From an uncultured Alphaproteobacteria bacterium (GTDB lineage: Bacteria > Pseudomonadota > Alphaproteobacteria > UBA7985 > CAJQQZ01), in the NCBI GenBank assembly GCA_905480575.1, contig CAJQQZ010000005.1, positions 1 through 45,842 of the forward strand: a stretch of 45,842 nucleotides of DNA, read 5' to 3'. The notes under the pieces are model-generated. The model did not search any database, was not told the DNA's origin, and saw only the letters and a list, made by a program, of their open reading frames with translations. The position numbers and the translations under genes were made by a program. The number at the start of each line of letters is the position of its first letter. Within the stretch, counting starts at the first letter, position 1. Below are positions 15,004 to 45,417 of this stretch, in pieces.

Positions 15004-16098
15004 TCAGACAGGGTCGTGCTTGTCCTTCATCAACTGCCAATTGAACGTGACACCGGTACCCGGTTCATCTGAAGCAATAGCAAGATGATTTTCAACAACC
15101 AGTGGCCTGGTGGTGTATTCATCAATCGGGAAGGAATGCACTTCTATCCAGCCCGCGTTTGATTGCCCAGAGACCAATCCAACATGCAGCTCCTGCATGC
15201 CGTGACTACAAACTGGCAGTCCATATTTCCTGGACATTTCTGCAACCTGTAACCAGCCCGTTATCCCGCCACAGTTAGAGGAGTCGGGCTGGATCCACGC
15301 CAGCTTTGCCTGCTCAAATGCATACTCAAACTCATGAATGGTGTGTAGGTTCTCACCCATTGCCAACGGCATACCTGTGGCTTCAGTGATCTTAGCGTAC
15401 CCGAGATAATCATCGGGAATTGTTGGCTCTTCGAACCACAACAGATCAAAGGGTTTAAAAGCCTCTGACGCTTCGATAGCTTGGTCAACAGACATAGAAT
15501 AGTTAGCATCGACCATGAATGCGATGTCCGGGCCGATCAGATCTCTGATCGCTGCGATACGCTCAACATCTTCTGCCAAAGTTGGTTGGCCGATCTTGAT
15601 TTTCACCCCATTGAAACCGCGGTTCAAATAGCCTTGGACAGAGGCCTTTAGCTTCTCGATAGAGAAGTTCAAATCAATGCCGCCACAATAGGCTTTACAG
15701 GATTTGGCAGCGCCGCCTGCCATCTTCCATAATGGTTCGCCTAAGGTTTTACCGCGAATATCCCAAAGCGCAATATCCACGGCGGAGATTGCAAATGAAG
15801 CAATGCCTCCCCGACCAACATAGTGGATGTGCCACTGCATCTCCTCATACAAGGCTTCTACATTCGCGGGATCTTGACCGACAAGGAACGGTGCCAAGTC
15901 ATGCTCGATCATGGCTAGGATGGATTGGCCACCTTTTCCGCCAGTATAGGTGTAGCCTGTACCTTCTGTCCCATCGTCAAGCCGTATCGTGGCCGTCACC
16001 AGCTCGAAATGTGTGTGACTGCCGTGTTTGGCATCAAAAAGTACCTCTTCCAAAGGCAGGCGAAAGAGCTGGGCATGAACAGATTGAATAGCTGGCAT
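15004..16098 (-). CDS. mandelate racemase/muconate lactonizing enzyme family protein (enolase superfamily, MR subgroup)
   Basis: This is an acid-sugar dehydratase- or racemase-type enzyme. Taking ATG 16098 (364 residues; the frame extends to a TTG at 16113), the expected residues are present: K166-x-K168 (VKIKIG), metal ligands D197 (VDANYS), E223 (FEEP) and E249 (GEN), and the Asp-His dyad D272 and H299 (CSHGMQ). The general base pair is therefore intact and the enzyme should be active. The N-terminal [11 protein letters not shown] loop would set specificity; I do not recognise the substrate. It may be the last gene of the leftward amidohydrolase-DUF3604-NfsA operon (52-base gap). Confidence 0.9.
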
Positions 16099-16150
16099 AG
16101 TTGGTTCCGACAATTATGTTTCTTTGTGTGAGTAATAAGGTAGCGCCTAG

Positions 16151-25666: not shown

Positions 25667-26770
25667 ATGAAGGGTTTCGAGGACGGTAGTTCGGCTTTCG
25701 CGAAAGACATGCGCAGGGGCCGCGGGGCTGTTACCAACACAAGTGGCCGGTTTGAGAACCAGGACCGTGTAGTCAGCGACGATGGTTGGTCGAGTTTGGA
25801 AGACCTTGCACAACACAACACCAAAACCTCAGTTACCTTGGAAACACCCAGGTCAATTATCACCAAGAACCAATCTCCAGATATTCCCTTCGATCGCTCT
25901 ATCAATCCCTACCGCGGTTGTGAGCATGGATGCATTTATTGTTTCGCGCGCCCAACTCATGCCTTTCTCGGCTTATCGCCCGGCCTTGATTTTGAAGCGA
26001 AGCTGTTTGCAAAACCCGATGCACCTCAACTTTTGGAGAAGGAATTGAGATCGAAGAACTATCACCCCCAACCCATTGCGATTGGGACCAACACTGATCC
26101 CTACCAACCGATAGACCGGCAGTATCGACTGATGCGCCAATTGTTGGATGTTCTGCGCTCATTTAACCACCCCGTCACCATAACGACTAAGTCGGCTTTG
26201 ATCTTAAGAGACATCGATATTTTGGCAGACATGGCCACACAGGGATTGGTATCCGTTGCCATTTCCGTCACTTCTTTGGATGCTAAGTTATCGCGAGTGA
26301 TGGAACCCCGTGCCTCCACACCAATGAAGAGGTTGGCCGCAGTTTCAGTGCTCCGAGAAGCCGGTATACCGGTTGGTGTCCTTACATCACCGATGATCCC
26401 TGCAATCAACGATCATGAATTGGAGGATATTCTGTCGGCGAGTAAAAATGCCGGAGCATTATGGGCCAGTTACATCCTTTTGCGCATGCCGTTTGAAATC
26501 AAACATTTGTTTAGGGAGTGGCTGTACGAAAATTTCCCGGATAGAGCGGATAAAGTTATCAAGCTCATCAAGGATACACGAGGTGGAAAAGACTATGATG
26601 CCCAATGGGGCAAACGAATGAAAGGTGAAGGCCAATACGCTGAGTTATTGGCCTCCCGCTTCAAGTTGGCAAAAAGGAAATACGGTTTGGACAATAAAAC
26701 GCCACCGTTAAGAACCGATCTTTTCCAGCCGCCCTTGGCAACTGGGGATCAATTAGCCTTGTTCGGTTAA
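25667..26770 (+). CDS. PA0069 family radical SAM protein
   Basis: The 367-residue protein has the radical SAM cluster motif C85-x3-C89-x2-C92 (GCEHGCIYCFARPTH) and the family-specific IGTNTDPYQPIDRQYRLMR segment seen in PA0069-type and spore-photoproduct-lyase-like proteins. It should bind a 4Fe-4S cluster and S-adenosylmethionine; the reaction is not known. ATG 25667 has AGGAGAG upstream. The stop overlaps the convergent decarboxylase stop by four bases (TTAA). Confidence 0.92.
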   Translation: MKGFEDGSSAFAKDMRRGRGAVTNTSGRFENQDRVVSDDGWSSLEDLAQHNTKTSVTLETPRSIITKNQSPDIPFDRSINPYRGCEHGCIYCFARPTHAFLGLSPGLDFEAKLFAKPDAPQLLEKELRSKNYHPQPIAIGTNTDPYQPIDRQYRLMRQLLDVLRSFNHPVTITTKSALILRDIDILADMATQGLVSVAISVTSLDAKLSRVMEPRASTPMKRLAAVSVLREAGIPVGVLTSPMIPAINDHELEDILSASKNAGALWASYILLRMPFEIKHLFREWLYENFPDRADKVIKLIKDTRGGKDYDAQWGKRMKGEGQYAELLASRFKLAKRKYGLDNKTPPLRTDLFQPPLATGDQLALFG

Positions 26771-27954
26771 CAGAAGTTCGAAACCTGAATATACTTCTTC
26801 GAGCTATATCCGTTGAAATTTGTCGTCGTTGATGATCCGTAGGCGCCCATATCGTAGAACACGATAATATCCTCTTCCTGCAGATCGTTTGGAAACGACA
26901 ATTTACCTGGCAATTGGTCAAGTGAATCACAGGTCGGGCCGAAAACCGTAAACTCCAGATCTTCTGCTGCCTTCCGTTCTCCAGACTTAGAGAAGACTTC
27001 GTAGCGCGGTAACATCTTGATGATATGGCTTTCTTGAAAGCCGCCGTAAACGCCGTCGTTCAGATAAAGCCGTCCGTCACCCTTGATCGCTTTCACCTTC
27101 GTGACCAAAGCAACAGAATTAGCAACCATAGCACGGCCGGGTTCACAGACCAGATCCGGTCTCTGTTCGGGGAATGCATCATCCACTGCACTTACGATTT
27201 CATCCATGTAGACTTTCAAATCTTCAACCTTGTCTTCAGGGAATTGAACTGGGAAGCCGCCGCCAACGTTCAACGTTGATAACTCACATCCCGCGGCTTT
27301 CGAAATCTGCGAGGCCATTTCTATGTATTGGCGATAAGCGTTGGCTTGCCTGCATTGTGAACCGGGGTGAAAAGTGAGCGACACTCGAAAACCTAAAGCT
27401 TCAGCTTCAGCCACTAAAGCAATGGCCTCTTCAGGCGTCGCACCGAACTTGGTTCCGAAATCATACCCGGCCACGCCAAGGTCCAAATGAAAACGAATGG
27501 ATGCTTCAACCAAGTGCGCCTGATCAGCTACTGCTTCTTTCAGTTTTCGAAGCTCGCCGATACAGTCCACAGAGAACGATCTGACTTCATGCTGATGAAA
27601 CGCGGCGTCGTTTTCTCGCCTGCTGCGGATAGGATTATTGTAATGCAATTCCGCAGTTTTTGAAAAACCTCTGACAAGAGCAATTTCGTTTAGGGATGCG
27701 ACGTCAAAAGCCGCCATTCCTTCGTTCAAAAGAGTTTCAATGATCTGTGGTTCTGGATTGGCTTTAACAGCATAGGTCACTTGCCCAGGGAAAAACTCGG
27801 CAAACCGACGATATGTTGCCTGCAACTCTGAGGGAGCAAAACAGTACAGTGGCATTTCATCAGAATAATCTTTGATGGCGTCAATCAAATTCAATGGCCT
27901 GCTCAATTCACGAGCACCAAAATCTACGTCGACCAATTTCAAAACTGCATTCAT
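26767..27954 (-). CDS. type III PLP-dependent decarboxylase (ornithine decarboxylase-like)
   Basis: The fold-type III enzyme is related to eukaryotic-type ornithine decarboxylase. The PLP Lys is K64 in VTYAVKANPEPQ, the glycine-rich phosphate loop is LNVGGGFPVQFPED, CEPGRAMVANS follows, and the catalytic Cys is C342 in FGPTCDSLDQ. The start ATG 27954 has AGGAGA six bases upstream (395 residues); the frame opens at 28014 without such a site. Ornithine to putrescine, or lysine to cadaverine, is the likely reaction; I cannot separate these by sequence. It is divergent from an Lrp regulator whose repeats lie in the shared promoter. Confidence 0.9.
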   Translation of the reverse strand: MNAVLKLVDVDFGARELSRPLNLIDAIKDYSDEMPLYCFAPSELQATYRRFAEFFPGQVTYAVKANPEPQIIETLLNEGMAAFDVASLNEIALVRGFSKTAELHYNNPIRSRRENDAAFHQHEVRSFSVDCIGELRKLKEAVADQAHLVEASIRFHLDLGVAGYDFGTKFGATPEEAIALVAEAEALGFRVSLTFHPGSQCRQANAYRQYIEMASQISKAAGCELSTLNVGGGFPVQFPEDKVEDLKVYMDEIVSAVDDAFPEQRPDLVCEPGRAMVANSVALVTKVKAIKGDGRLYLNDGVYGGFQESHIIKMLPRYEVFSKSGERKAAEDLEFTVFGPTCDSLDQLPGKLSFPNDLQEEDIIVFYDMGAYGSSTTTNFNGYSSKKYIQVSNFC

Positions 27955-28022
27955 CTGCTTATCTCCTATTTGAAACAATAATGGCTCAGGAATTCGACAG
28001 ACTGTAGACTTCACTCTTTACG

Positions 28023-28068
28023 AAATTTGCTTTAACCTGTGCAAATTGTATGCAAATTGGACAAATTG
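28023..28068. promoter_or_regulatory. cluster of CAAATTG boxes in the decarboxylase-lrp promoter
   Basis: Three direct copies of (G/A)CAAATTG occur at 28041-28048, 28052-28059 and 28061-28068, spaced 11 and 9 bases. An inverted copy, AAATTTGC, is at 28023-28030. The last box ends four bases before the Lrp ATG, so bound regulator would block the lrp start and could activate or repress the divergent decarboxylase. Lrp/AsnC proteins bind as multimers to such phased sites. Confidence 0.5.
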
Positions 28069-28072
28069 CTAA

Positions 28073-28504
28073 ATGATCAACGAAACTGACCAGAAGATTC
28101 TGGACCTTCTTCAAGTTAATGCTCGGCTTCCAGTTTCTGATCTGGCTAGGAAATTGGGTGTTTCACGCACTACTGTGCAATCAAGACTTGATAGGCTTGA
28201 GGCCGACGGCGTGATCAAGGGTTACACCATACGGTTAGCGGACGAAAAGCTAAGAAACAAAATCAGAGCTTTGGTCACCATCAAAGTGGAGACCGGCAAA
28301 GCAGTCGCCGTTATCTCACAGCTCAAAAAAATGACGGAGGTTGATTCTCTACATTCCGTCAGTGGACGCTATGACTTCGTGGCATTCGTTTCTGGCGACA
28401 ATCCAGAAGCGGTCGACCAGGTTCTGGATCGGTTTTGGGAGATCGATGGCATTCTCAATACAGAATCTGCGTTGATCCTATCGACAAAACTCAACCGCCG
28501 CTGA
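28073..28504 (+). CDS. Lrp/AsnC family transcriptional regulator
   Basis: The 143-residue regulator has the typical start INETDQKILDLLQVNARLPVSDLARKLG with a helix-turn-helix (about residues 20-45, LARKLGVSRTTVQSRLDRLEADGVI) and a C-terminal RAM ligand domain (VSGRYDFVAFVSG). There is no good ribosome-binding site in front of ATG 28073, and phased operator boxes run up to it, so the mRNA may be leaderless or very poorly translated. It probably senses an amino acid handled by the neighbouring decarboxylase. Confidence 0.92.
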   Translation: MINETDQKILDLLQVNARLPVSDLARKLGVSRTTVQSRLDRLEADGVIKGYTIRLADEKLRNKIRALVTIKVETGKAVAVISQLKKMTEVDSLHSVSGRYDFVAFVSGDNPEAVDQVLDRFWEIDGILNTESALILSTKLNRR

Positions 28505-28515
28505 AGCCCACAACA

Positions 28516-30066
28516 CTAAAGCAAAGCTTCAATCAAGAACGGGCCTTTTTGATTAAGCGCTGCTTTCATCAGTTTGGCTAAATCTTCCGCCGTTTCAGCC
28601 CTTCCTGCCTCAACCCCCATCGAGTTCGCCAGCTGTGGCCAATTGATCGTCGGATTATCAAGAGTCAGCATATCCCGTGCACGAGGTCCCGGGTTATCAA
28701 AGCCAAGGTTCGACATTTCCCCTTTCAAAATCGCATAAGCACGGTTTGAGAGAATTATGGTCTTCACATCAAGGTTCTCGCGGGCCTGCGTCCATAAAGC
28801 CTGACAAGAGTACATCCCACTGCCGTCGGCCTGCATCGCAATCACGGTTCTATTCGGACAAGCAATCGCAGCCCCTGTTGCCATTGGAAAGCCGATACCA
28901 ATCGCGCCGCCTGTCCCTTGTAGCCAGGTATGGGGTTTGGTGTTCTTAGTGTATGGGAAGAAACCGCGGCCGGACGTGATCGATTCATCAGCCAAAATTG
29001 CATTCTCTGGCATCAGAGCCGCCAAAGTTAGAGCTATGTTGTCCGGATTGAGTTGCCCTGTCGGTAATTCCGTTGGTTGATATGCTTCATGCAACGGTTT
29101 GTGCCCACCGCCAATTTCGTCGGCAAGTGATTGCAGCGCCAAAACACCGTTCTCATCTTCTGCCGCCAGTTCCATGATCTTACAGCCTTCTTGGAAAAGC
29201 CGTTTTGGACGTCCCGGATAAGCAAAGAAGCCAACGGGTTCAACGGCATTGACGAGAAAGACTTGTTCAAAGTTACCGAGCTGCTCAAGCGCTTGGGGAA
29301 TGGGGTAGCGCACACGATCGATAAAGACGCGCCCCGCCCCTCTCTCCATTCTGTTGTTCGATCCCTGTGCTAAAAACTTGGCACCCGTAGCTTGAGAAAT
29401 CCGACTTATTGCATCTAGTCCTTCGTCTCGAAGCGTAAGTCCTGACAAAACGAAGAGACACTTTTCGCCTAGCTCTTTCGCTTTCTTACCGGCTTTTTCG
29501 ATTCGATCATCGGATACTCTGCCGGGTTGAGCCGGGTTAAATACTTGGGCCTCTTCTTCCAGATCGGTCCAAGCCATATCTGAGGGCAGGATCAATGTGG
29601 AAATATTACCGGGAGGGCTCTTTGCAATAGCAATAGCTTCGGCAGTGTCTTTGCCTAAGTTTTCCAATCTAGTCGTCGTCCGAACCCAGGCCGAGTTGCT
29701 TCCAGCGATGGCCTCAATATCTGACGTCAAAGGTGAGTCCAAATGACGGTGGTAAGTTGCGTGCTCTCCAACGATGTTTACCATGGGTGATTTGGCGCGC
29801 CGGGCGTTGTGGACGTTGGCTAGACCATTGGCCAGCCCAGGCCCCAGATGCAACAAAGTTCCCGCTGGCTTGTCTGCCATGCGCGCATAACCATCTGCTG
29901 CACCAGTCGCGACTGTCTCATGTAAACAAAGAACCGAGCGCATTTCGGGCGTTAGATCCAAAGCAGCGACAAAGTGCATTTCTGATGTGCCTGGATTGGT
30001 AAAACAAGTATCGACTCCACCCTTTAGAAGAGCATCGACCATCAATAATGCACCGCTTCTTTTCAT
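28516..30066 (-). CDS. thiamine diphosphate-dependent enzyme (acetolactate synthase/benzoylformate decarboxylase-like)
   Basis: The 516-residue ThDP enzyme has the activating Glu in VLCLHETVATGAADGYARM, a His in LLHLGPGLANG aligned by eye with the active His of benzoylformate decarboxylase, the Mg-ThDP region MQADGSGMYSCQALWTQ with SNRAYAIL, and a C-terminal GPFLIEALL. Annotation pipelines usually call such proteins acetolactate synthase large subunit, but no small subunit is present. It lies three bases after a ureohydrolase on the same mRNA, so a 2-ketoacid decarboxylase such as a 2-ketoarginine type is a possibility. Confidence 0.82.
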   Translation of the reverse strand: MKRSGALLMVDALLKGGVDTCFTNPGTSEMHFVAALDLTPEMRSVLCLHETVATGAADGYARMADKPAGTLLHLGPGLANGLANVHNARRAKSPMVNIVGEHATYHRHLDSPLTSDIEAIAGSNSAWVRTTTRLENLGKDTAEAIAIAKSPPGNISTLILPSDMAWTDLEEEAQVFNPAQPGRVSDDRIEKAGKKAKELGEKCLFVLSGLTLRDEGLDAISRISQATGAKFLAQGSNNRMERGAGRVFIDRVRYPIPQALEQLGNFEQVFLVNAVEPVGFFAYPGRPKRLFQEGCKIMELAAEDENGVLALQSLADEIGGGHKPLHEAYQPTELPTGQLNPDNIALTLAALMPENAILADESITSGRGFFPYTKNTKPHTWLQGTGGAIGIGFPMATGAAIACPNRTVIAMQADGSGMYSCQALWTQARENLDVKTIILSNRAYAILKGEMSNLGFDNPGPRARDMLTLDNPTINWPQLANSMGVEAGRAETAEDLAKLMKAALNQKGPFLIEALL

Positions 30067-30069
30067 AAC

Positions 30070-31041
30070 CTATTTACCCTTCCTGCTGTGGACAGCGTCA
30101 GCCAATACACAAAGCAGTTCAAAGATCATCGATGCCCCAACCCAAGCAGTGTTACCGCTGGAATCAAAAGGAGGTGACACTTCAACCAAGTCAGCGCCAA
30201 CTAAGTTCAACCCTTGGAGCAGTCTCACCATTTGCTGAGCCTGGAAGCTAGTAAATCCGCCGATCTCTGGTGTTCCTGTCCCCGGTGCCTGCGATGGATC
30301 AATGCCATCGATATCGAATGAAATGTATGTTTTACTGTCGCCAACTATTTTGCGCGCTTCGTTCATCACGTCTTCAACGCCGCGATCCATCAGCTCTTCG
30401 ATACGGATGATCCTGACACCCACTTCTTCTGCGAAATCGACATCATCTGTGCCATACATAGTTCCACGGATGCCAATCTGTACGACCTTCTTGGGGTCAA
30501 GACATCCCTCCTCAATCGCGCGTCGGAAAGGCGTACCATGGGTGTATTTGAACCCATCGAAATAGGAGTCAAACAGATCCGTATGAGCATCGAAATGGAT
30601 CATGCCCATGGCACCATGTTTCTTTGCCAGCGACCGTAAAACTGGCAATGACACGAGGTGATCCCCACCTGCTGTCATTGGCAATACGTCACGCGATAAA
30701 ACCTGATCATAAAACCCCGTTATACGTTTAAGGGCATCTTGCACATCCACAGGATTGATCGGGCTATCTCCTAAGTCAGCAACGTTCGTTAACTGAAATG
30801 GATCAATGCGTGACACGGGATGCATCGTTCGGATCATCGTCGACAAATCACGCAATTGTCTCGGACCATGCCTAGGGCCAGGGCGATTGGTTGTCCCGCC
30901 ATCCCAAGGCACACCAATAATGCCTATGTCGACCTCGTCAGTTTCCTCGATTTGCACATGAGGCAATCGCATGAACGTTGGCATGCCAGCGAAGCGTGGC
31001 GATACATTCCCTGCTATCGGTTGAAACTTCTCATTGGTCAT
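30070..31041 (-). CDS. agmatinase/guanidinobutyrase-type ureohydrolase
   Basis: The 323-residue binuclear manganese enzyme hydrolyses guanidino groups to urea and an amine. The full metal set is present: H128 (GGDHLVSLP), D151-x-H153-x-D155 (HFDAHTDLFD), and D243-x-D245 (SFDIDGIDP). The segment THGTPFRRAIEEG is more like guanidinobutyrase/guanidinopropionase types than Escherichia coli SpeB. ATG 31041 has AAGGGA upstream. It is the first gene of a two-gene unit with the ThDP enzyme, so it may act on a guanidinoacid rather than agmatine. Confidence 0.88.
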   Translation of the reverse strand: MTNEKFQPIAGNVSPRFAGMPTFMRLPHVQIEETDEVDIGIIGVPWDGGTTNRPGPRHGPRQLRDLSTMIRTMHPVSRIDPFQLTNVADLGDSPINPVDVQDALKRITGFYDQVLSRDVLPMTAGGDHLVSLPVLRSLAKKHGAMGMIHFDAHTDLFDSYFDGFKYTHGTPFRRAIEEGCLDPKKVVQIGIRGTMYGTDDVDFAEEVGVRIIRIEELMDRGVEDVMNEARKIVGDSKTYISFDIDGIDPSQAPGTGTPEIGGFTSFQAQQMVRLLQGLNLVGADLVEVSPPFDSSGNTAWVGASMIFELLCVLADAVHSRKGK

Positions 31042-34151: not shown

Positions 34152-34331
34152 CTTTGCATCCACTTCATTAATCGAAAACTGATATCGTCATAAACGGGTG
34201 AAGTATTTAGCACCAGAAAAGAAACAAAAATTCCGCCTACTGAAAATCTTCATTTGCTTTCCAAACGGCTTAACCCTAGAGGGAAAGTTGACAAAATTTT
34301 AGGCCGACAGGGTCAGTTAATGGAGAACAAA

Positions 34332-35285
34332 ATGAAAGTAGGATTTATCGGTCTCGGCAACGTAGGCGGCAAGTTGTCCGGCAGCCTTCTGCGCAACGGT
34401 TTCGACATCACCGTACGCGACCTCAGCAAGGAAACGGCGCAACCTTTCCTCGATCAAGGTGCTAAGTGGGCAGAGAGCCCAAAAGAGATGGCAGAAGCCG
34501 TCGATATGATCATCACTTGTTTGCCAAGTCCTGCCGCTTCTGCCGCTGTCATGGAAGCGGAAGACGGAATTCTCGCCGGCCTTTCTGCTGGTAAAATCTG
34601 GGCGGAAATGAGCACCACTGACGAAGCAGAAGTCAAACGCTTAGGAGCTCTCGTAAAAGCCAAAGGCGCAGAGCCCATCGATTGCCCTGTGTCTGGTGGC
34701 TGTCACAGAGCTGCTACGGGTAATATTGCGATCTTTGCTGGCTGTGAGCGCTCAACCTTCGAGAAGGCCCTGCCCGTCTTAACCACAATGGGGCGCCGCA
34801 TCCTTAATACTGGAGACCTCGGATCCGCATCTGTTTTGAAAGTTGTCACCAACTACCTAGCAACAGCAAATCTCATCACTTGCTGTGAAGCGCTTGTCAC
34901 CTGTAAAGCAGCAGGAATGGACCTCAATACATCGTTCGAAGCTATCAAAATTTCATCCGGCAACTCATTTGTTCATGAGACGGAAAGCCAGGTGATCTTG
35001 AACGGTAGCCGCGACATCAATTTCACAATGGACCTCGTCATCAAAGACATGAGCCTCTTCTCTGCTGTTGCGGAACGCGCCAATGTTCCATTGGAAGTCG
35101 CCCCAGTCTTGCTCGACATCTTCAAAGACGGTCAAGAACGTTATGGTCCACGCGAATGGTCACCAAACATCATTAAGCGTCTAGAGGAAGCAACCGGTTT
35201 GGATATTCGTGCTGCGGGCTTCCCTGCCGAAATGCTAGACGACGAACCGGAGGAGCCCGGTTACGAGGTGGTTCCACAACGTTAA
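34332..35285 (+). CDS. NAD(P)-dependent beta-hydroxyacid dehydrogenase family protein
   Basis: The Rossmann motif is GFIGLGNVGGKLSGSLL, the standard substrate signature IDCPVSGGCHRA is intact, and the catalytic Lys is in SVLKVVTNYL. A second conserved Lys is in VIKDMSLFS. The frame is open from 34254, but ATG 34332 has GGAG six bases upstream and begins at the Rossmann strand (317 residues); ATG 34320 is possible. The C-terminal tail is longer and more acidic than usual (DDEPEEPG). It sits next to the convergent mandelate-racemase homologue, so it may act on a related hydroxyacid. Confidence 0.86.
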   Translation: MKVGFIGLGNVGGKLSGSLLRNGFDITVRDLSKETAQPFLDQGAKWAESPKEMAEAVDMIITCLPSPAASAAVMEAEDGILAGLSAGKIWAEMSTTDEAEVKRLGALVKAKGAEPIDCPVSGGCHRAATGNIAIFAGCERSTFEKALPVLTTMGRRILNTGDLGSASVLKVVTNYLATANLITCCEALVTCKAAGMDLNTSFEAIKISSGNSFVHETESQVILNGSRDINFTMDLVIKDMSLFSAVAERANVPLEVAPVLLDIFKDGQERYGPREWSPNIIKRLEEATGLDIRAAGFPAEMLDDEPEEPGYEVVPQR

Positions 35286-35290
35286 TAGAG

Positions 35291-36373
35291 CTAAGTGAAC
35301 TTGTAGCGTTCCACCGCTTGTTCATCCCATTCAAGCCCAGCTCCTGGACCATCCAAGGGCTGGGTTTTGCCGTTTTCTATCTGCATCCTGTTTGCCAAAA
35401 CTGGCTCCGCCCAATCAACGTATTCCAACCAATGCCTGGTCGGTGTTACGCACAAGAGATGGACAGAGAATTCCGGGTAAAGGTGTGAAGAGATTGGCAT
35501 CCCCACGGCTTCAGCTAAAGAAACGGATCTCATCCAGCCTGTCACGCCTCCGATTTTCCCTACATCAGGCATAAAATAGTCGCAAGCCCCTGCTTCGAAC
35601 GCCTTAGCAGCTTCATGAGGACCCCAACAGTTTTCGCCTGTTTGAATGGGGATTTCTGAAACGGCACGAACTTCCGCGTGACCTTTATAATCGTCAAATC
35701 TTACCGGCTCCTCAATCCAATCAAGCGTGCTGTCTTTCAATGCAATCGCTCGAACCCGTGCTTCAGTGATGGAGAGGCTTTGATTGTAGTCTGAGAAAAG
35801 GCGGACATCTGGGCCAACCGCAGCTCTTACTGCAGCAACGACGGCGACATCATCCTTTGCGGTAGGGTATCCGAGACGTACCTTGATTGCATCGAACCCC
35901 TCGGCAACCAGCTCTATCGCTTCGGCTGCTGCTTTCTCAGCCCCCATGATGCCGAGACCTTTGCTGTTATAGACCGGCAACTCCATCGGCTTTCCGCCGA
36001 GCAATTTGGCAAGAGGCAATCCTTGTGTTTTCGCTAACAAATCCCACAGAGCCATATCAATGCCGGATAAGGCCATGCCGGTCATCCCTTGAGCTCCCAG
36101 CAAACGAAGGCGTTTTTGGATGTCTTCCTCAATCATGAAGGGGCTTAGGTCTTCACCAACTATCCAATCGGCGAAGTCGGTTAACAAAGCCGTCATGGAA
36201 CGCAAGGCCGCTGACGTGTAACAGAAAACATATGATTTGCCGACAAGACCGTTGTCGCCTTGGATGTCTATCAACACCAATGGGGCGTCGGTTACAGCGC
36301 CACTGGCTGTGTGCAGAGGGCGGCGCATTGGCACCAAAACTGGTCGGGCGGTAAGGGATAAGATTTTTGTCAT
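35291..36373 (-). CDS. mandelate racemase homologue with K166R change
   Basis: The enolase-superfamily enzyme (360 residues) aligns by eye almost end to end with Pseudomonas mandelate racemase (359). Counting from ATG 36373, which overlaps the upstream Nudix stop as ATGA, the key residues fall on the racemase numbers: K164, D195 and N197 (SDYNQSL), E221 (WIEEP), E247 (GEN), D270, H297 (ISSHLYPE) and E317 (HWLEYVD). The KxK second lysine is Arg (K164-V165-R166, codon CGT). In mandelate racemase K166 is the (S)-side general base, so the chemistry is altered or one-sided. It is last in the MFS-Nudix-racemase set beside the hpa cluster. Confidence 0.88.
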   Translation of the reverse strand: MTKILSLTARPVLVPMRRPLHTASGAVTDAPLVLIDIQGDNGLVGKSYVFCYTSAALRSMTALLTDFADWIVGEDLSPFMIEEDIQKRLRLLGAQGMTGMALSGIDMALWDLLAKTQGLPLAKLLGGKPMELPVYNSKGLGIMGAEKAAAEAIELVAEGFDAIKVRLGYPTAKDDVAVVAAVRAAVGPDVRLFSDYNQSLSITEARVRAIALKDSTLDWIEEPVRFDDYKGHAEVRAVSEIPIQTGENCWGPHEAAKAFEAGACDYFMPDVGKIGGVTGWMRSVSLAEAVGMPISSHLYPEFSVHLLCVTPTRHWLEYVDWAEPVLANRMQIENGKTQPLDGPGAGLEWDEQAVERYKFT

Positions 36374-36861
36374 GAGGTTCTTTCCAATGCTTCCTGGTCT
36401 ATTAGCAACCAATGAGAAGGTTCACGTTCAACGAATTCTTCCCAAATGGTTTTAACGGCATTCCTTTGGCTTGCGAAAATAAGCCGTTCTGTGGCCTGCT
36501 CAAGGCTTACCCATTCATAGATATCGTGTTCCTCGTTCAAAACCACTTCATGACTTTCATCAATGAAGCCAACAAAGACTGGGCTTAACCAAATTGAGTC
36601 GCGATCGATTTCATAGAACTGTTCGCAGATATCAGCAGAGTAGAAACTCGCTGGGGTTAAACTCGTCTCTTCTTTTACCTCACGCAGCGCCGCTTGCCAG
36701 GCTGTTTCATTCTCTTCGATCTTCCCGGCCACCTGTGCCCAGAATGATGATTTCCTATCCGTTCTACGCATGAGTAGAAAGTGGGTATTCTTCCCTCTCC
36801 CCTTCAGTAAGTAGGCAGAAACTCCGCGGACAGCGACAGGGTTAGTTATGTTGACGGTCAT
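36370..36861 (-). CDS. Nudix hydrolase
   Basis: The Nudix box is GKIEENETAWQAALREVKEE followed by TSL, so the late Gly of the consensus is Ser. It should hydrolyse a nucleoside diphosphate derivative with magnesium. The start ATG 36861 is chosen because GGAG lies eight bases upstream (163 residues), although the frame opens four codons earlier. Its 5' end overlaps the MFS gene by 20 bases and its stop overlaps the racemase start, so all three are translated from one mRNA. Confidence 0.88.
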   Translation of the reverse strand: MTVNITNPVAVRGVSAYLLKGRGKNTHFLLMRRTDRKSSFWAQVAGKIEENETAWQAALREVKEETSLTPASFYSADICEQFYEIDRDSIWLSPVFVGFIDESHEVVLNEEHDIYEWVSLEQATERLIFASQRNAVKTIWEEFVEREPSHWLLIDQEALERTS

Positions 36862-38065
36862 GAAAGTCTCCACGCTTCAGGAAAACTACTATCATCACAA
36901 CGACGCCAAAAATGCCAGAGATGACGAGCGAACCTGCAACACCAAACAAGGAACCAAGGCCACCGAGAATAAAGGCACCGATGGCAGGGACTCCTAAAGA
37001 AACAGTAGTCCAGATCGACATAACTCGACCGCGGTGATTGTCATCTGTTGTCACTTGCAATTGGGTTTGAGCCATAATTCCAATAAAAGTGGCTAAAAAG
37101 CCCATACTTGCGGCAAGGATTGAGGCAATGATCATATCGTTGGTTACCCCCAACATCAGAAGCACAAAACAAGCCGCCACTAAAATCAAGGCCATAACCA
37201 ACAGCGAGCCCTGTTTACTTGAGCGAAAAACCTGCAAATAGATCCCAAGACAAGCGGCCCCCGCGCCCGATGCTGCGGTCAATGTTGCCAAGCCTTCCGC
37301 GCCTGAGTTCAATACTGCGCCAGCATAGGCGGGTAGAATTTCGAAGAAACTTCGCCCCAGCAACCCGTTGAGAGCGGTCACAAGGACTATCATTGCGGCC
37401 CCCGGAAGCTGTAGAAGGTAAACAATCCCATCGACAAGTTCGCGCCCAAGAGATTGCCTTTTCAAAGGCTTACCTTCTTTTGGCGTAAGGACGACTCTCG
37501 TGAAGAAAAGCACATAAAAAATACTGCAGAATGCCGAGGCAAAAAAGGAGAAAGCAACACCGTACTGAGCGATGATTACGCCACCAACAAGTGGGCCGAC
37601 AATTCTTGCGAAATTGAAAACAAGAGCGCCTAGCCCAGCTGCACTCAAGTACAAGCTCTTCGGCACTAGTCTTGGCATAACAGACAACCGCATGGGGCTG
37701 TAGGCAGCAACGAGAACACCATGCAAAAGGCTAAAGACGATCATGAAGGAAATTGATAACTCGCCCCAGTAACTCCCCGCTGCGAAAGCGAGTGAGATCA
37801 AACCTTGGCCCGACGTAATCGCCATCATGGTGCGTTTCAAACGCCAACGATCCGCGAAAACCCCAAAAATCGGCGTCAGAAAGAAAGTCGGCGCCAAGGT
37901 GGAGGCAATGATCAGTCCCGTCCAGAAGGGAGACTGAGTAATCTCCCAAGCGGCCCAACCCAAGGCAACTTTGAAAACCCAAAAGCCGATGGTCGAAAAC
38001 CACCCACATATAAAGTAAGCGCGGTAAGCCGGGAGTTGTAAAGCTGAAGTAAGTTCTTTGCTCAT
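36842..38065 (-). CDS. MFS transporter (MFS_3/EntS-like)
   Basis: The 407-residue protein has about twelve spans and the family's loop 2-3 signature FGVFADRWRLKRTMM, typical of the EntS-type exporters. The substrate is unknown. ATG 38065 is 53 bases after the SDR stop, so it may continue the hpa operon. The next genes (Nudix, racemase homologue) overlap it. An aromatic acid or its product would be a reasonable cargo given the neighbours; this is inference. Confidence 0.88.
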   Translation of the reverse strand: MSKELTSALQLPAYRAYFICGWFSTIGFWVFKVALGWAAWEITQSPFWTGLIIASTLAPTFFLTPIFGVFADRWRLKRTMMAITSGQGLISLAFAAGSYWGELSISFMIVFSLLHGVLVAAYSPMRLSVMPRLVPKSLYLSAAGLGALVFNFARIVGPLVGGVIIAQYGVAFSFFASAFCSIFYVLFFTRVVLTPKEGKPLKRQSLGRELVDGIVYLLQLPGAAMIVLVTALNGLLGRSFFEILPAYAGAVLNSGAEGLATLTAASGAGAACLGIYLQVFRSSKQGSLLVMALILVAACFVLLMLGVTNDMIIASILAASMGFLATFIGIMAQTQLQVTTDDNHRGRVMSIWTTVSLGVPAIGAFILGGLGSLFGVAGSLVISGIFGVVVMIVVFLKRGDFHDRQHN

Positions 38066-38118: not shown

Positions 38119-38856
38119 TTAGGCATAGATATAGCCACCGGAAACAATTTGGTTTTCACCGGTCATATAGGTGTTGCGATTGCTGGCTGCCATAAGCACA
38201 AACTCAGCAATTTCTTCTGGCTTTGCGCCGCGCCCCAAAGGAGAAGCTTTGGCGAGTTCTGGAAGAAATCCAGCTGCTGCTGCTTTCTGGGTCGCCATAC
38301 CTGCAGGTGCAACGGAGTTTACAAGAATCTGGTCCGCAGCCACTTCATGAGCGAAGGATTTGGTCAAACTGACTACGGCGGCTTTTGTCGCTGCATAGTG
38401 CGCATTTTGGGGATGAGCTTTAAAAGCATCAACGGATGTGATGTTGACAATGCGCCCAGCGACCTCGGGAGGATTGGTGTATTGGCGCATATGGTACACC
38501 GCTGCCACCATCATGTGGTAGGTGCCCTTTATGTTGACCGCATTCTCGAGATCCCATTCTTCATCGGTTACTTCGAGAATAGCTTTTCGAGGATAGACAG
38601 CCGCTGAGTTAATCAGGGAATGAACACGACCCAATTGAGAAACAGCTTCATCAAAAGCTTTGTGGCAGGCCTCACTTGTCCGTATGTCCGCCTTGATTGC
38701 AATGCCGCCAACTTGGCGCGCGACCTCGCTGGCTGCCCCAAGCTCCAGGTCAACGATCGCGATTTTCGCTGCACCACGTTGTTTTGCTAATGTCGCTACT
38801 GTGGCACCAAGTCCGGCACCACCGCCAACAATGACGATATTCTGCCCGTCCAACAC
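38119..38856 (-). CDS. SDR family oxidoreductase linked to hpaD
   Basis: This 245-residue short-chain dehydrogenase has the cofactor motif in [18 protein letters not shown] (the usual TGxxxGxG is GGGAGLG), the catalytic Ser in ITSVDAFK and Tyr-x3-Lys in [10 protein letters not shown]. It starts with GTG 38856, four bases after the hpaD stop. It is not a standard homoprotocatechuate pathway enzyme, so it may oxidise or reduce an upstream aryl substrate. I do not recognise the substrate. Confidence 0.88.
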
Positions 38857-38860
38857 GCGA

Positions 38861-39844
38861 TTAGTGCGCGATGATGGGTTGAGCTTTCAGATCGGCTTCT
38901 CTGGTTGGGGTGTCTGGGAATTCAGACCCCTCCTCAAACCAAGAGCGTGGAGCAGGTGTACCCCAAAGTGTCTGGCGCTGAGTATCCAACAAGGACCAAC
39001 GGATTGGCTCATGATCCGGATCAACCGTCATGTAGTCAGAAGCATAAAGCTCAATGCGATGATCATCTGGATCTCTGACGTAGAGGAAAAAGGCATTGGA
39101 GATACCATGACGACCAGGGCCACGCTCCATGTTGCCTAAGTATCCTGTCGTCGACATAAGGTCACAAAGATGGATCAAATGTATCGCTGTTGGAAGGAAC
39201 AAAGCCGCGTGATGCAGTCTCGGTCCCATGCCATTAGTAAAGGCCACGTCATGGACAGTTCCTTTGCGATGCATCCACGCGGCCCACATGATGTCGTTGT
39301 CGTCTTCAGCAGTGTACTCGGTTACGCGGAAACCAAGCTCCGAATAGAAATCCACGGACTCCTGAACATTGGGGCTAAAGCAGTTGAAATGATCAAACCG
39401 CAATGGCTGAGCTGCTTTGTATTCTTCATACTTTTGAAGAAGAGATGGAACCTTCTCAATTTCAAAAAAGAACTCAAGCACTGCACCATGATTGTCTCTT
39501 GTTCTGAGTGTACGACCTTGATGTTCGCGTTCGACAAACTCAGCAGGAATGCCTTTGCTCTCGAACCAGACCTTTGCTTTGTCGAGATCTTCTTCAGAAC
39601 CAACCTTAAAGCCCTGCGCGTTACAGACACCAGGCGTGTCAGACTTGCGAAGCACGAAACAGTGATGGTTACGATCTTCCATCGCGCGCAAATAGATCGC
39701 GTCATCAGTCCGCAAGGTCGTTTTGAGACCTAGCGTGTTGTCATAGAAATGCTGGCTCTTATCGAGGTCTGATACAGCGAGATCAACATAAGCACAACGG
39801 ACAGTGTTGAAGGGTGGGGTCAAAGTATAAGGAGGAACTGGCAT
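38861..39844 (-). CDS. hpaD: homoprotocatechuate 2,3-dioxygenase, class I extradiol (VOC) type
   Basis: The 327-residue two-domain VOC protein should cleave the ring of 3,4-dihydroxyphenylacetate using Fe(II) or Mn(II). Metal ligands fit the class I enzyme: H152 (DHFNCFSP), H211 or H212 (LHHAALFL) and E265 (HRIELYASD), with spacing like the Brevibacterium enzyme (155/214/267). Escherichia coli instead uses a LigB-type HpaD, so this is the non-homologous form. The start overlaps the hpaE stop (TAATG). The operon context makes the substrate likely. Confidence 0.88.
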
Positions 39845-41361
39845 TAGGATGCTCCCAATTTTGGAATATTATGATAGCCGGTTGCAAAACCGACATGCTT
39901 GGTTTCCATATAGAATTCAAATGAATATTCACCGCCGTCACGGCCAATACCACTGGCTTTTGTACCACCGAAAGGCGTTGGCAAGTGGCGGACATTTTCT
40001 GAATTAACCCAGATCATGCCTGCTTCAAGCTTTTCGGTGAATCTCATGGCGCGCGTGACATCAGAAGTCCAAACGTATCCCGTCAGACCATAGATGACAT
40101 CATTGGCCATTTTCAAAGCTTCTTCTTCGCTGTCGAATGGGATGACAGTCAGGGCTGGTCCGAAGATCTCTTCTTGTGCGATACGCATCTGATTATTGGC
40201 GTTGGTGAAGAGCGTTGGCTCAACGTAGTACCCCTCGCCCTCTTTCCTTTTACCGCCGACAGCGATGGTCGCGCCGTCTTCCTTCGCGATATCAAAGTAA
40301 GAACAAACTTTATCCATGTGAATTTGATGGATCAAGGGGCCTACCTCAGTTGCAGGATCAAGCGGGTGCCCGACTTTCAAATTTTGAACGCGAACCTTTA
40401 GCTTCTCAACGAAATCATCGTGAACGTTGGATTGAATGAGCAACCGGCTGGAGCAAGTGCAACGTTCTCCGTTCAAGGAGTAAATCATGAAGATTGCAGC
40501 ATCTAACGCGCGATCCAAATCCGCATCATCGAAAACGACAACTGGGTTCTTACCACCGAGTTCAAAGTGAACACGCTTCAATGTTTCGGCTCCTTGGCGC
40601 ATAATGTGCGACCCCGTGGAGCTTTCGCCAACAAAAGCAATTGCTTTGATCGCTGGATGCTCGGTCAACGCCTTACCGGCGTCCTCACCAAAACCATTCA
40701 CTAAGTTCCAGACACCAGGTGGTAGACCGGCTTCTTCTGCTATCTCCATCAAAATACGTGCGGTGATCGGAGAGAACTCAGCAGGTTTGTGAACAACTGT
40801 ACAACCAGCGGCTAGAGCAGGCGCAATCTTCCATGTCGACAGCATGAACGGTGTGTTCCAAGGCGTGATGACACCAACTGGGCCGATTGGAACACGGGTG
40901 GTGACATTCAGAAGCGTCGGGGACGGCAAGGTTTGACCATCGCGCGCTGCTTCGCACTTATCGGCATAATAGCGGAAGTTTTCGGCTCCACGGAGCGCTG
41001 CCTTAGACATAAAGCGGAGTGCTTGGCCCGTGTCTAAGCACTCCAAAAAGGCTATCTCTTCTGCTCGCTCAACAATCTTGTCGGCGATTGAGTGAAGGAT
41101 TTTTTTACGCTCTTTCGCGGCCATGTCGCGCCATGCTGGAAAGGCTGCTTTGGCCGCCTTAGCAGCACGGTCAATGTCAGTTGCTGTACCCTTGGCACAA
41201 TCAACCATTTTCTTGCCATCGACTGGAGACACGACCTCAAAGGTTTCCCCCGCATTCAAAGCGATGTCTTCACCGCCAATGCGATTGCGAACCCCAGTGT
41301 CCTGAACTTTCTTCAGGTACCCAAGCGCTTTATCGATGTTAGTTTGAAGATCAGACAACAC
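39844..41361 (-). CDS. hpaE: 5-carboxymethyl-2-hydroxymuconate semialdehyde dehydrogenase
   Basis: The 505-residue NAD+-dependent aldehyde dehydrogenase has N169 (PWNT), K192 (VHKPAE), the catalytic pair E267 (FELGGKNP) and C301 (NGERCTCSSR), and the C-terminal GGTKASGIGRDGGEYSFEFY segment. It oxidises the ring-cleavage product of HpaD. Its start is GTG 41361, preceded by AAGGAGAAGG and overlapping the hpaF stop by 11 bases. It is flanked by hpaF and hpaD. Confidence 0.93.
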   Translation of the reverse strand: MLSDLQTNIDKALGYLKKVQDTGVRNRIGGEDIALNAGETFEVVSPVDGKKMVDCAKGTATDIDRAAKAAKAAFPAWRDMAAKERKKILHSIADKIVERAEEIAFLECLDTGQALRFMSKAALRGAENFRYYADKCEAARDGQTLPSPTLLNVTTRVPIGPVGVITPWNTPFMLSTWKIAPALAAGCTVVHKPAEFSPITARILMEIAEEAGLPPGVWNLVNGFGEDAGKALTEHPAIKAIAFVGESSTGSHIMRQGAETLKRVHFELGGKNPVVVFDDADLDRALDAAIFMIYSLNGERCTCSSRLLIQSNVHDDFVEKLKVRVQNLKVGHPLDPATEVGPLIHQIHMDKVCSYFDIAKEDGATIAVGGKRKEGEGYYVEPTLFTNANNQMRIAQEEIFGPALTVIPFDSEEEALKMANDVIYGLTGYVWTSDVTRAMRFTEKLEAGMIWVNSENVRHLPTPFGGTKASGIGRDGGEYSFEFYMETKHVGFATGYHNIPKLGAS

Positions 41362-41746
41362 CCTTCTCCTTCAGTTTCTCGTGAATAGAATTACGTTTCA
41401 TATTAGTATTGGCATCGAGCTCTCGGATTTCAAAAGACAGCGCCAGCGGGCGTTCCCCGAAATGAGCTTCTAGATGGGCCTCAATTTTTTGGAACATCAT
41501 GATCGCCGCTGCTTTTCGGACTTTCTCCTCGCGTCCAACACCGACTTTGCCCGCAATATCAATGAAGGCATTGTCGGGATCATCATCAGCGATTGAGTAA
41601 TGTTCGCAACGAACAGCGCGAACACGCAATCCGCCGACCGGAAAGATACCGGTTTCAAGCGCGGCTTCGCGAACAACATCACAAAGGTCCGTCATATCAA
41701 TGGACATTTCGAGATTGGCAGAATATTCAACAGTAAAGTGTGGCAT
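41351..41746 (-). CDS. hpaF: 5-carboxymethyl-2-hydroxymuconate delta-isomerase
   Basis: The 131-residue tautomerase-fold enzyme isomerises 5-carboxymethyl-2-hydroxymuconate. The ATG at 41746 is decisive: it gives a protein beginning Met-Pro (MPHFTVEYSANLEM), and the Pro becomes the catalytic N-terminal residue after Met removal. The frame opens at 41764 but that would bury the Pro. It is the first gene of the leftward hpaF-hpaE-hpaD operon, 12 bases from a likely HpaR site. Confidence 0.93.
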   Translation of the reverse strand: MPHFTVEYSANLEMSIDMTDLCDVVREAALETGIFPVGGLRVRAVRCEHYSIADDDPDNAFIDIAGKVGVGREEKVRKAAAIMMFQKIEAHLEAHFGERPLALSFEIRELDANTNMKRNSIHEKLKEKGVV

Positions 41747-41757
41747 GATTGGACCTG

Positions 41758-41782
41758 TTGACAAAATTAATTAACTTGTTAA
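41758..41782. promoter_or_regulatory. imperfect palindrome between hpaF and hpaG (candidate HpaR operator)
   Basis: TTGACAA (41758-41764) and TTGTTAA (41776-41782) form an inverted repeat with six of seven positions paired, around an A+T-rich centre containing TTAATTAA. MarR proteins bind such palindromes. It lies just before the hpaF start and about 60 bases before hpaG, so it can repress both directions. Confidence 0.45.
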
Positions 41783-43611: not shown

Positions 43612-44448
43612 TCAGTTTGAGCATGATCTAGAACCCGTTTCACCAAAATGTTCAAGGAAACGAGCTCGAGAGTTTTCACTATCAACGGAGAAAGACGTCC
43701 CGTTCGCCGCGTTATAGGCTTTTAACGACGCACGGCTCATAGGCCCCCAATCGCCGTCAACAACACCAGCATAGCATCCATGTGACAGCAGATGCGTTTG
43801 CGCCATCTCGTAGATTTCACCTAATCCGAAGCATTGCCCATCAAATTTCGCCCCAGTACAAGGGGCCACGTAGGAGCTGGCTAAGTCACTCGTTTGACCG
43901 GCGGCCATTTGACGAACTAACGGCAGCAGATTTTCGCCTGGGCAATCTGTAGACACATGATCCATATGACCAGAGATCTTGTGGCTGGGCACAGAGAACC
44001 GGTTTTGAAGGCTTCCCACCAAGGCAGCCATTGAAGAAATCTGGCCTGTACTGGGTACCTCGCCATCAAAATGGCCTTCTAGAACGATATGGATACGGTT
44101 AGCGGGGTTGTATCCCGTATTTGTGTCGCCGGAATACTTGAGCTCTCGCCCCTCCCCTATCTCACCATGCATATCAATGTAGAAGTGATAGGGTACGTCG
44201 CCCCAATTTTTCTTGCCCTGAGAAAACCCCTGTAAGCCTCTCAGCTTTTGTTTGAGGCTATACTTTTTCTGTTGTTTGACGCCGGTGTGATGAATCACGA
44301 TCTCTTTGATCGAGTGGTTTTTCATCCGGCTTGTGATGCCTGGCTTTGCTCCCCAGCTGTCACGGCTCACTATAGTCTGAGCCGTGACTGAACTGGTTGA
44401 AACTATAGCCAAAAGACCTACTAAAACGATCTTTGCTAAGGTTCTCAT
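43612..44448 (-). CDS. secreted PGRP-type amidase with C-terminal cysteine-containing PG-binding-like module
   Basis: The 278-residue protein has a signal peptide (1-24), a PGRP/amidase_2 domain (about 25-182) with H53/H54, Y87, H161 (SGHMDH) and C169 (TDCPG), and then a C-terminal module (about 195-275). The module contains HLLSHGCYAGVVDGDWG, like peptidoglycan-binding domain 1 but with paired cysteines. The same module form occurs in the next protein upstream. It should degrade peptidoglycan outside the cytoplasm. It is six bases after the Asn-rich gene, so all three are probably one operon. Confidence 0.9.
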   Translation of the reverse strand: MRTLAKIVLVGLLAIVSTSSVTAQTIVSRDSWGAKPGITSRMKNHSIKEIVIHHTGVKQQKKYSLKQKLRGLQGFSQGKKNWGDVPYHFYIDMHGEIGEGRELKYSGDTNTGYNPANRIHIVLEGHFDGEVPSTGQISSMAALVGSLQNRFSVPSHKISGHMDHVSTDCPGENLLPLVRQMAAGQTSDLASSYVAPCTGAKFDGQCFGLGEIYEMAQTHLLSHGCYAGVVDGDWGPMSRASLKAYNAANGTSFSVDSENSRARFLEHFGETGSRSCSN

Positions 44449-44454
44449 CCTCGT

Positions 44455-45417
44455 TTACTTACACGACTTCTTAACGTAAGCCGAAGACGCGCCTTGGCTG
44501 CGAGCATAGTTCTTGAAGTCCATGGCGCCGCTGTACGAGGTCGGACCATCAACAGAACAATACCAACCCGCTGTAAAGTTCGGGTAGTCTTGCTTGTTTG
44601 TGTAAATCACGCGACCGCCTACCAAGAGTGCCGCTGACTCTGCTGAATTATAGTTCTTTGTACAGGCGCTAATGCCAAACCAACCACAAATGGCGCCGGC
44701 ATTATTACCGCTGTTGTTGTTATTGTTGTTTGAAACCTTTTTCCGCACACAACGTCCATTTGAATTCAGGACTTTCCCAGAAGGACAGTTACAAATGTTA
44801 AAACCAGCGGCGTCGATGTCTTCAATCATTCGGGCGAACTGAGTAGAGTTACTTGATTTACGCAGGTTCGTACCCAGCTGGTTGTTTGCAGCAGCGATGG
44901 CTTTTGCGGTACGGCCACCCCAGACACCATCCGCGCGACCTACGCGACATCCATTGTCTGTAAGCGCTTCCTGCAACATCTTCGTCAATGCCCACTTGTC
45001 AGTGATACAATCGTTATTGCTGCTCCAATAGCCTGGACAATTAGAAATATTGTTGTTCTGGTTCGAATTGTTATTGGAATTGTTGTTAGAATTCGAGTTG
45101 TTATTCGAATTGCTGTTTGTATAGGAATTGTTGTTAGAGTTGTTATTTGAATTGGAACCGGTGTTCGTATTTGAGTTACTGTTGCCCTCGTTCTTGACAC
45201 AAGATTTATATTTAATCTTCGCAAGCTTCGCCGCTGTTGTTCCAGGATAGTCCTCGACAACGACTAGGTACATCTCACAATCACCACCCTCCTGGGCTAG
45301 TTTGTAAAACTCCAATGCTTCTTTGTTGTTTGCCTCTGACGTAACTGGATTAGCAACCATCATCAGCGGAGCTAGTAACAGCCCACCTGCCATCCAAAAC
45401 TTCAACTTACTCAACAT
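44455..45417 (-). CDS. secreted Asn-rich protein with PG-binding-like and SPOR-like segments
   Basis: I do not recognise this 320-residue protein as a whole. A signal peptide (about 1-28) is followed by a short helical region with two Cys (33-73), an Asn/Ser-rich linker (79-126), and a cysteine-containing module (128-213) with ALTDNGCRVGRADGVWGGRT that resembles a peptidoglycan-binding domain. A second Asn run (230-239) leads to a C-terminal region (244-319) whose GWYCSVDGP and SSAYVKKSC recall SPOR or YARHG modules. ATG 45417 has GGAGGA. It leads the amidase operon, so a role at the cell wall is likely. Confidence 0.8.
   Translation of the reverse strand: MLSKLKFWMAGGLLLAPLMMVANPVTSEANNKEALEFYKLAQEGGDCEMYLVVVEDYPGTTAAKLAKIKYKSCVKNEGNSNSNTNTGSNSNNNSNNNSYTNSNSNNNSNSNNNSNNNSNQNNNISNCPGYWSSNNDCITDKWALTKMLQEALTDNGCRVGRADGVWGGRTAKAIAAANNQLGTNLRKSSNSTQFARMIEDIDAAGFNICNCPSGKVLNSNGRCVRKKVSNNNNNNSGNNAGAICGWFGISACTKNYNSAESAALLVGGRVIYTNKQDYPNFTAGWYCSVDGPTSYSGAMDFKNYARSQGASSAYVKKSCK
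45040..45183. repeat. degenerate short tandem repeats encoding the Asn/Ser linker
   Basis: About 144 bases consist of imperfect repeats of a unit near GAATTGTTGTTA (plus strand), giving NNSN-type protein repeats. Unit lengths stay multiples of three, so slippage would change linker length without frameshift. The copies are diverged (for example GAATTGTTATTG, GAATTGCTGTTT). Confidence 0.75.

Follow-up and report, generated by a model that had tools for sequence, protein, structure and literature searches.

The window (the whole stretch of 45,842 nucleotides that was analyzed) encodes a mandelate racemase (MR)-like protein that carries Arg at the site of the catalytic Lys166 of MR. The swap is common to a large, old branch of homologues, here called K-x-R after the motif at positions 164–166, and therefore probably marks a different substrate or reaction, not an isolated oddity. 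The enzyme is rather likely to be Mg2+-dependent and to remove the alpha-proton of a 2-hydroxy acid other than mandelate by means of His297/Asp270, with Arg166 serving as a second acid/base or as a fixed cation.

MR is a textbook system for enzyme-catalyzed proton abstraction, and K166R is its classic laboratory mutant (Kallarakal 1995, as cited in PMC9835602). A natural clade that is fixed for a K166R-type change, has few other active-site differences, and includes a solved member offers a ready experiment on how the loss of a catalytic lysine is compensated. The clade is also a caution for annotation, given that misannotation of the MR family in NR reaches up to 90% (PMC2781113).

The Gene Product and Position 166

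The MR-like gene occupies positions 35291–36373 on the minus strand; the plus strand has no open reading frame over this interval. Its product of 360 amino acids contains MR_MLE_N and MR_MLE_C, both above the Pfam cut-off, and aligns end to end with Pseudomonas putida MR over 354 residues (E 3e-94). There is a two-residue insertion near residue 140, and from approximately residue 144 onward the numbering is that of MR. The alignment confirms the MR-like length, numbering, and catalytic residues listed in the first-pass annotation, with K164 (the first residue of the K-x-K motif; codon at 35882–35884, minus strand), D195, N197, E221, E247, D270 (35564–35566, minus strand), H297 (35483–35485, minus strand), and E317 all retained; H297, the general base in MR, and D270 form the His/Asp dyad of the seventh and sixth strands. 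Arg at position 166 is confirmed as well (codon CGT, 35876–35878, minus strand), and the alignment offers no other Lys for this position, an alternative that the annotation had named against itself.

K166 is the sole catalytic residue of MR that is changed in the window protein, and the top-scoring PDB sequence is that of the engineered MR mutant K166R (1mdl), above wild-type MR. K164, R166, D195, N197, E221, E247, D270, H297, and E317 show no variation across 40 aligned sequences of K-x-R relatives. Codons 317–321 (E-Y-V-D-W; 35411–35425, minus strand) retain E317 and contain V319 and W321, which are specific to the clade. The metal ligands D195, E221, and E247, together with the H297/D270 dyad, place the protein in the MR subgroup of the enolase superfamily. 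No NCBIfam equivalog fits the protein; the score against NF047820 (L-talarate/galactarate dehydratase) is 202 bits, below the cut-off of 500.

Phylogeny of the K-x-R Proteins

Homologues were taken as the best 80 loci from 84,980 species genomes, hence with a bias to near relatives, and were supplemented with samples of the class, the phylum, and the nearest relatives, and with plasmid records. Arg166 is seen in all close relatives (approximately 50% identity or more) except L022, and more distant homologues are a mix of K-x-R and K-x-K. Among representative K-x-R relatives Arg166 is present in 46 of 46, down to approximately 37% identity, which rules out chance or a base error at codon 166. 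These proteins come from Alphaproteobacteria, Burkholderiales, Rokubacteria and Binatia MAGs, and many Bradyrhizobium species.

In the careful tree of 63 rows (46 with Arg and 17 with Lys at position 166) the label changes once, against a mean of 15 for shuffled labels, and a single branch separates all 46 K-x-R rows from P. putida MR and the other K-x-K rows. The branch itself has weak to moderate support (54/80; present in 51% of bootstrap trees). A quick free tree with nine rows added (plasmid homologues, 3UGV, and 3TOY) shows two changes, because the K-x-K proteins L027 and L033 are placed close to the base of the Arg rows; in some trees they lie among the K-x-R rows. When the K-x-R rows are constrained together, the likelihood is higher than that of the free quick tree, and the constraint is not rejected (AU p 0.75); hence a single origin of K-x-R is possible and probable, though not proven.

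Comparison of the 46 Arg rows with 16 Lys rows reveals further differences. R166 and W321 are invariant in the former (46/46); N136 is nearly invariant there, with Asp in most K-x-K rows (corresponding to D138 of MR); position 319 is Val in 40 of the 46 Arg rows and Leu in none, and Leu in 13 of the 16 Lys rows. The fixation of positions 136, 319, and 321 together with R166 does not count as independent statistical support for co-evolution, since it perhaps reflects a single transition. The window protein carries this signature (3UGV type: Arg166, N136, V/M/Q319, W321). The K-x-R clade whose existence the first-pass annotation had set as a test of its reading is borne out, and it is set apart from the genuine mandelate-pathway enzymes. 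No open papers on K-x-R in the MR family or on 3UGV were found in the literature.

Predicted Structure and Pocket

The AlphaFold model, built with a 40-row clade alignment, has a mean pLDDT of 97 and a pTM of 0.94. Its closest solved fold is 3UGV (TM 0.98), with MR next (0.96–0.97). Positions 319 and 321 come after E317 in the last strand of the barrel, and position 136 adjoins the substrate-binding Ser139 of MR; by this placement, taken from MR, the clade-specific differences would cluster near the active site.

The pocket positions V29, F52, Y54, and L298 are apolar in most K-x-R members. This bears on the tentative possibility of a one-base enzyme, a dehydratase or an epimerase acting from one side: proton transfer would fall to His297/Asp270 alone, and Arg166 would hold a distal acid or hydroxyl group of the substrate. 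Arg is a poor general base, and other members of the MR subgroup are acid-sugar dehydratases, both of which speak for such an enzyme; however, the apolar F52, Y54, and L298 are unlike a polyol-binding site, and E317, N197, and S139 are the same as in MR.

Genomic Context in the Window

The MR-like gene closes a directon of seven genes on the minus strand, with spacing of −32 to +53 bases: an HpaF-like 5-carboxymethyl-2-hydroxymuconate isomerase (41351–41764, below the NCBIfam cut-off), the 5-carboxymethyl-2-hydroxymuconate semialdehyde dehydrogenase HpaE (39844–41361) and the 3,4-dihydroxyphenylacetate 2,3-dioxygenase HpaD (38861–39844), both above it, a short-chain dehydrogenase (SDR; 38119–38856), an MFS transporter (MFS_3 in Pfam; 36842–38065), and a NUDIX hydrolase (36370–36873) that overlaps the MR-like gene by four bases. 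Among the neighbors in the window HpaR is also above the NCBIfam cut-off, and an HpaG-like protein is below it. The hpa genes and the MFS transporter that the first-pass annotation had placed beside the gene are real; the hydroxyacid dehydrogenase, a beta-hydroxyacid dehydrogenase family protein of the 6PGDH/HIBADH type (34254–35285, plus strand), is convergent with the MR-like gene, not co-directional.

Among the loci fetched, the hpa linkage is seen in the window and one congeneric MAG (L040/L132) only, with the same gene order from HpaE onward; outside this genus neither HpaD nor the F, G, or R genes are found near homologues, and neighbors elsewhere vary. A context of hpa genes shared across the clade, which would have met the test set in the first-pass annotation, is not supported, and the hpa linkage was rejected as a functional clue for the clade.

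In the congeneric copy (L040:4332–5412, L132) a frameshift breaks the reading frame near codon 45 and codon 58 is an in-frame TGA, which reflects either an assembly error or recent inactivation. This lesion would fit a decaying gene, or a sequencing error as the source of Arg166, an explanation that is very improbable nonetheless: Arg is conserved across the clade, the reading frame in the window is intact, and the two copies share 86% protein and 74% DNA identity, as expected under long purifying selection. In an attempt at dN/dS estimation dS was saturated.

Other parts of the window contain, on one strand, genes for an ornithine/arginine-decarboxylase-type PLP enzyme, a ThDP enzyme (PRK07586 type), and an agmatinase-family ureohydrolase (26767–31041, minus strand), the latter two genes being three bases apart; and two adjacent ORFs of 278 and 320 amino acids (43612–45417, minus strand), the first without an NCBIfam match and the second without a Pfam match at the thresholds applied.

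K-x-R Neighbors in Other Lineages

Pfam scans of approximately 190 neighboring ORFs reveal no dominant family, SDR being the commonest. Clustering of the ORFs recovers only within-genus synteny in Bradyrhizobium and spurious antisense ORFs; neighbors vary by lineage, and many K-x-R genes stand alone among housekeeping genes. An SDR orthologous between families (56–72% identity) directly adjoins the K-x-R gene in L165/L020, L025, L168/L030, L036, and L121. A divergent GlcD-like FAD dehydrogenase lies beside the K-x-R genes of L161/L013 and L100, which the tree places close to the window protein; an L-2-hydroxyglutarate-oxidase-like gene is near those of L100 and L165; and in L144 (Polaromonas) PanE (2-dehydropantoate reductase) overlaps the K-x-R gene.

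In L165 (L165:3790–14239; contig C36 of G229) the K-x-R gene is flanked by a complete LarA-LarB-LarC-LarE nickel-pincer racemase cluster on one side and an SDR–PdxA pair on the other, with a tartrate-dehydrogenase-like gene and the L-2-hydroxyglutarate-oxidase-like gene close by, which suggests a 2-hydroxy-acid pathway. Next to complete LarABCE, a 2-hydroxy-acid racemase cluster, a second racemase would seem redundant, and this also counts toward the one-base dehydratase or epimerase. Generally, the gene content of this handful of loci is suggestive of a 2-hydroxy-acid theme, not of a conserved operon.

Relation to the Mandelate Pathway

A compact mandelate operon is found on plasmid pAtK84c of Rhizobium rhizogenes K84 (L143:3262–7077), with nitrilases, benzoylformate decarboxylase, an FMN-dependent hydroxyacid dehydrogenase, and a K-x-K racemase that groups with P. 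putida MR; it is the functional anchor of the K-x-K branch. Close homologues (at least 62%) of its decarboxylase and dehydrogenase adjoin four K-x-K loci (L143, L145, L149, and L150) and none of the 121 K-x-R loci, a set that includes redundant and closely related entries and many short flanks. The source genome has no benzoylformate decarboxylase above the NCBIfam cut-off, and the ThDP enzyme of the window (28516–30066) fits PRK07586, not benzoylformate decarboxylase. Three full-length FMN_dh-family proteins are encoded in the source genome; their presence is uninformative, because FMN_dh matches in 14 of 14 control genomes. Elsewhere in the genome a ThDP enzyme gene comes immediately after an FMN-dependent hydroxyacid dehydrogenase gene, a pair resembling the mandelate pathway (G000:C132:12550–15280).

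These observations weigh on the unlikely possibility of an ordinary mandelate racemase that tolerates Arg166 and retains a useful rate on mandelate or hydroxymandelate. The likeness to MR is high (44–45% identity in structural alignment, TM 0.96–0.98), and the hydrophobic MR pocket is largely kept. The K166R mutant reportedly has a kcat some two to three orders of magnitude lower. It is cited as still able to turn one enantiomer into the other (PMC11851776), which favors such tolerance. However, Arg is invariant across the clade with other residues fixed alongside it, mandelate operons are found with K-x-K relatives and none with K-x-R genes, and the source genome lacks a benzoylformate decarboxylase above the cut-off. 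The changed substrate offered in the first-pass annotation is likely.

Proposed Function

For the preferred reading, removal of the alpha-proton from a 2-hydroxy acid other than mandelate, the following course may be envisaged. The enzyme would bind Mg2+ and a 2-hydroxy carboxylate whose side chain is apolar or aromatic; His297/Asp270 would take the alpha-proton from one face; and the enediolate would be stabilized by Mg2+, K164, and E317. Arg166, on the opposite face, would act as a second acid/base, giving a non-mandelate 2-hydroxy-acid racemase or epimerase, or would remain a fixed cation, giving a one-base reaction. A two-base racemase with Arg and a one-base enzyme with Arg as a fixed cation are about equally likely. 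In the genus of the window a hydroxylated aryl or ring-cleavage 2-hydroxy acid would be a plausible substrate, because the gene ends a directon with homoprotocatechuate meta-cleavage genes.

In MR, the parts that the window protein conserves serve to bind Mg2+, to stabilize the enediolate, and to take the alpha-proton from (R)-mandelate (His297), with Lys166 taking it from (S)-mandelate (PMC9835602); with Arg at position 166 the His297 half-reaction is still possible. Since the engineered K166R enzyme is cited as converting enantiomers, Arg166 does not by itself abolish two-base racemization; the one-base reaction that the first-pass annotation took K-x-R to suggest is one possibility. It is conceivable, although doubtful, that the clade consists of natural two-base 2-hydroxy-acid racemases with Arg as the second general acid/base, in which V319, W321, and N136 have co-evolved, tuning its pKa or making room for it.

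Comparison With Known Systems

P. putida MR (EC 5.1.2.2; 2mnr, 1mns) shares with the window protein the fold, length, metal ligands, K164, N197, H297–D270, and E317. The window protein differs in having Arg for K166, Asn for D138, Val for L319, and Trp for L321, and its genomic context is not that of the mandelate pathway. The SFLD defines the MR family by a His and Lys acid–base pair on opposite faces of the active site (PMC5467563). The other family features, E317, K164, and N197, are present in the window protein, but the pair is absent from it and from 46 of the 46 K-x-R representatives. Since position 166 is Arg, this protein should not go by the name mandelate racemase, although its first half-reaction is probably MR-like. 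The K166R mutant of MR (1mdl) has the same Arg at the same position, but it is engineered, carries this one mutation, and lacks the other clade residues. The Bradyrhizobium ORS278 protein BRADO_4202 (3TOY/3TTE) is a close homologue with the same fold, but is K-x-K and groups with the K-x-K rows.

At least 13 MR/MLE proteins are encoded in the source genome. One, a distant protein with a K-I-K motif and D-x-N, is in the window itself (15004–16113, minus strand). Another paralogue (L006:1396–2547), of the 3u4f/3tcs group, reads KWRVG, a separate occurrence of K-x-R, and is followed on its contig by a ThDP-enzyme gene (G000:C10:23002–24549).

K-x-R in nature is not unprecedented. The 3u4f/3tcs group of the MR subgroup is also K-x-R (FKVRAG), but it is a different, distant group and a separate occurrence of the motif. 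Within the clade of the window protein, 3UGV is a solved member ("an enolase" from alpha proteobacterium BAL199, EFI-501650, Mg bound, 2011; the entry title names no substrate), assigned to it by the K-L-R motif (FKGLKLRMG), Asn at MR position 138, and W321, with a TM of 0.98 to the window protein. The two proteins are 41% identical, and 3UGV has Glu at position 52 and Gln at position 319, hence its pocket differs from that of the window protein.
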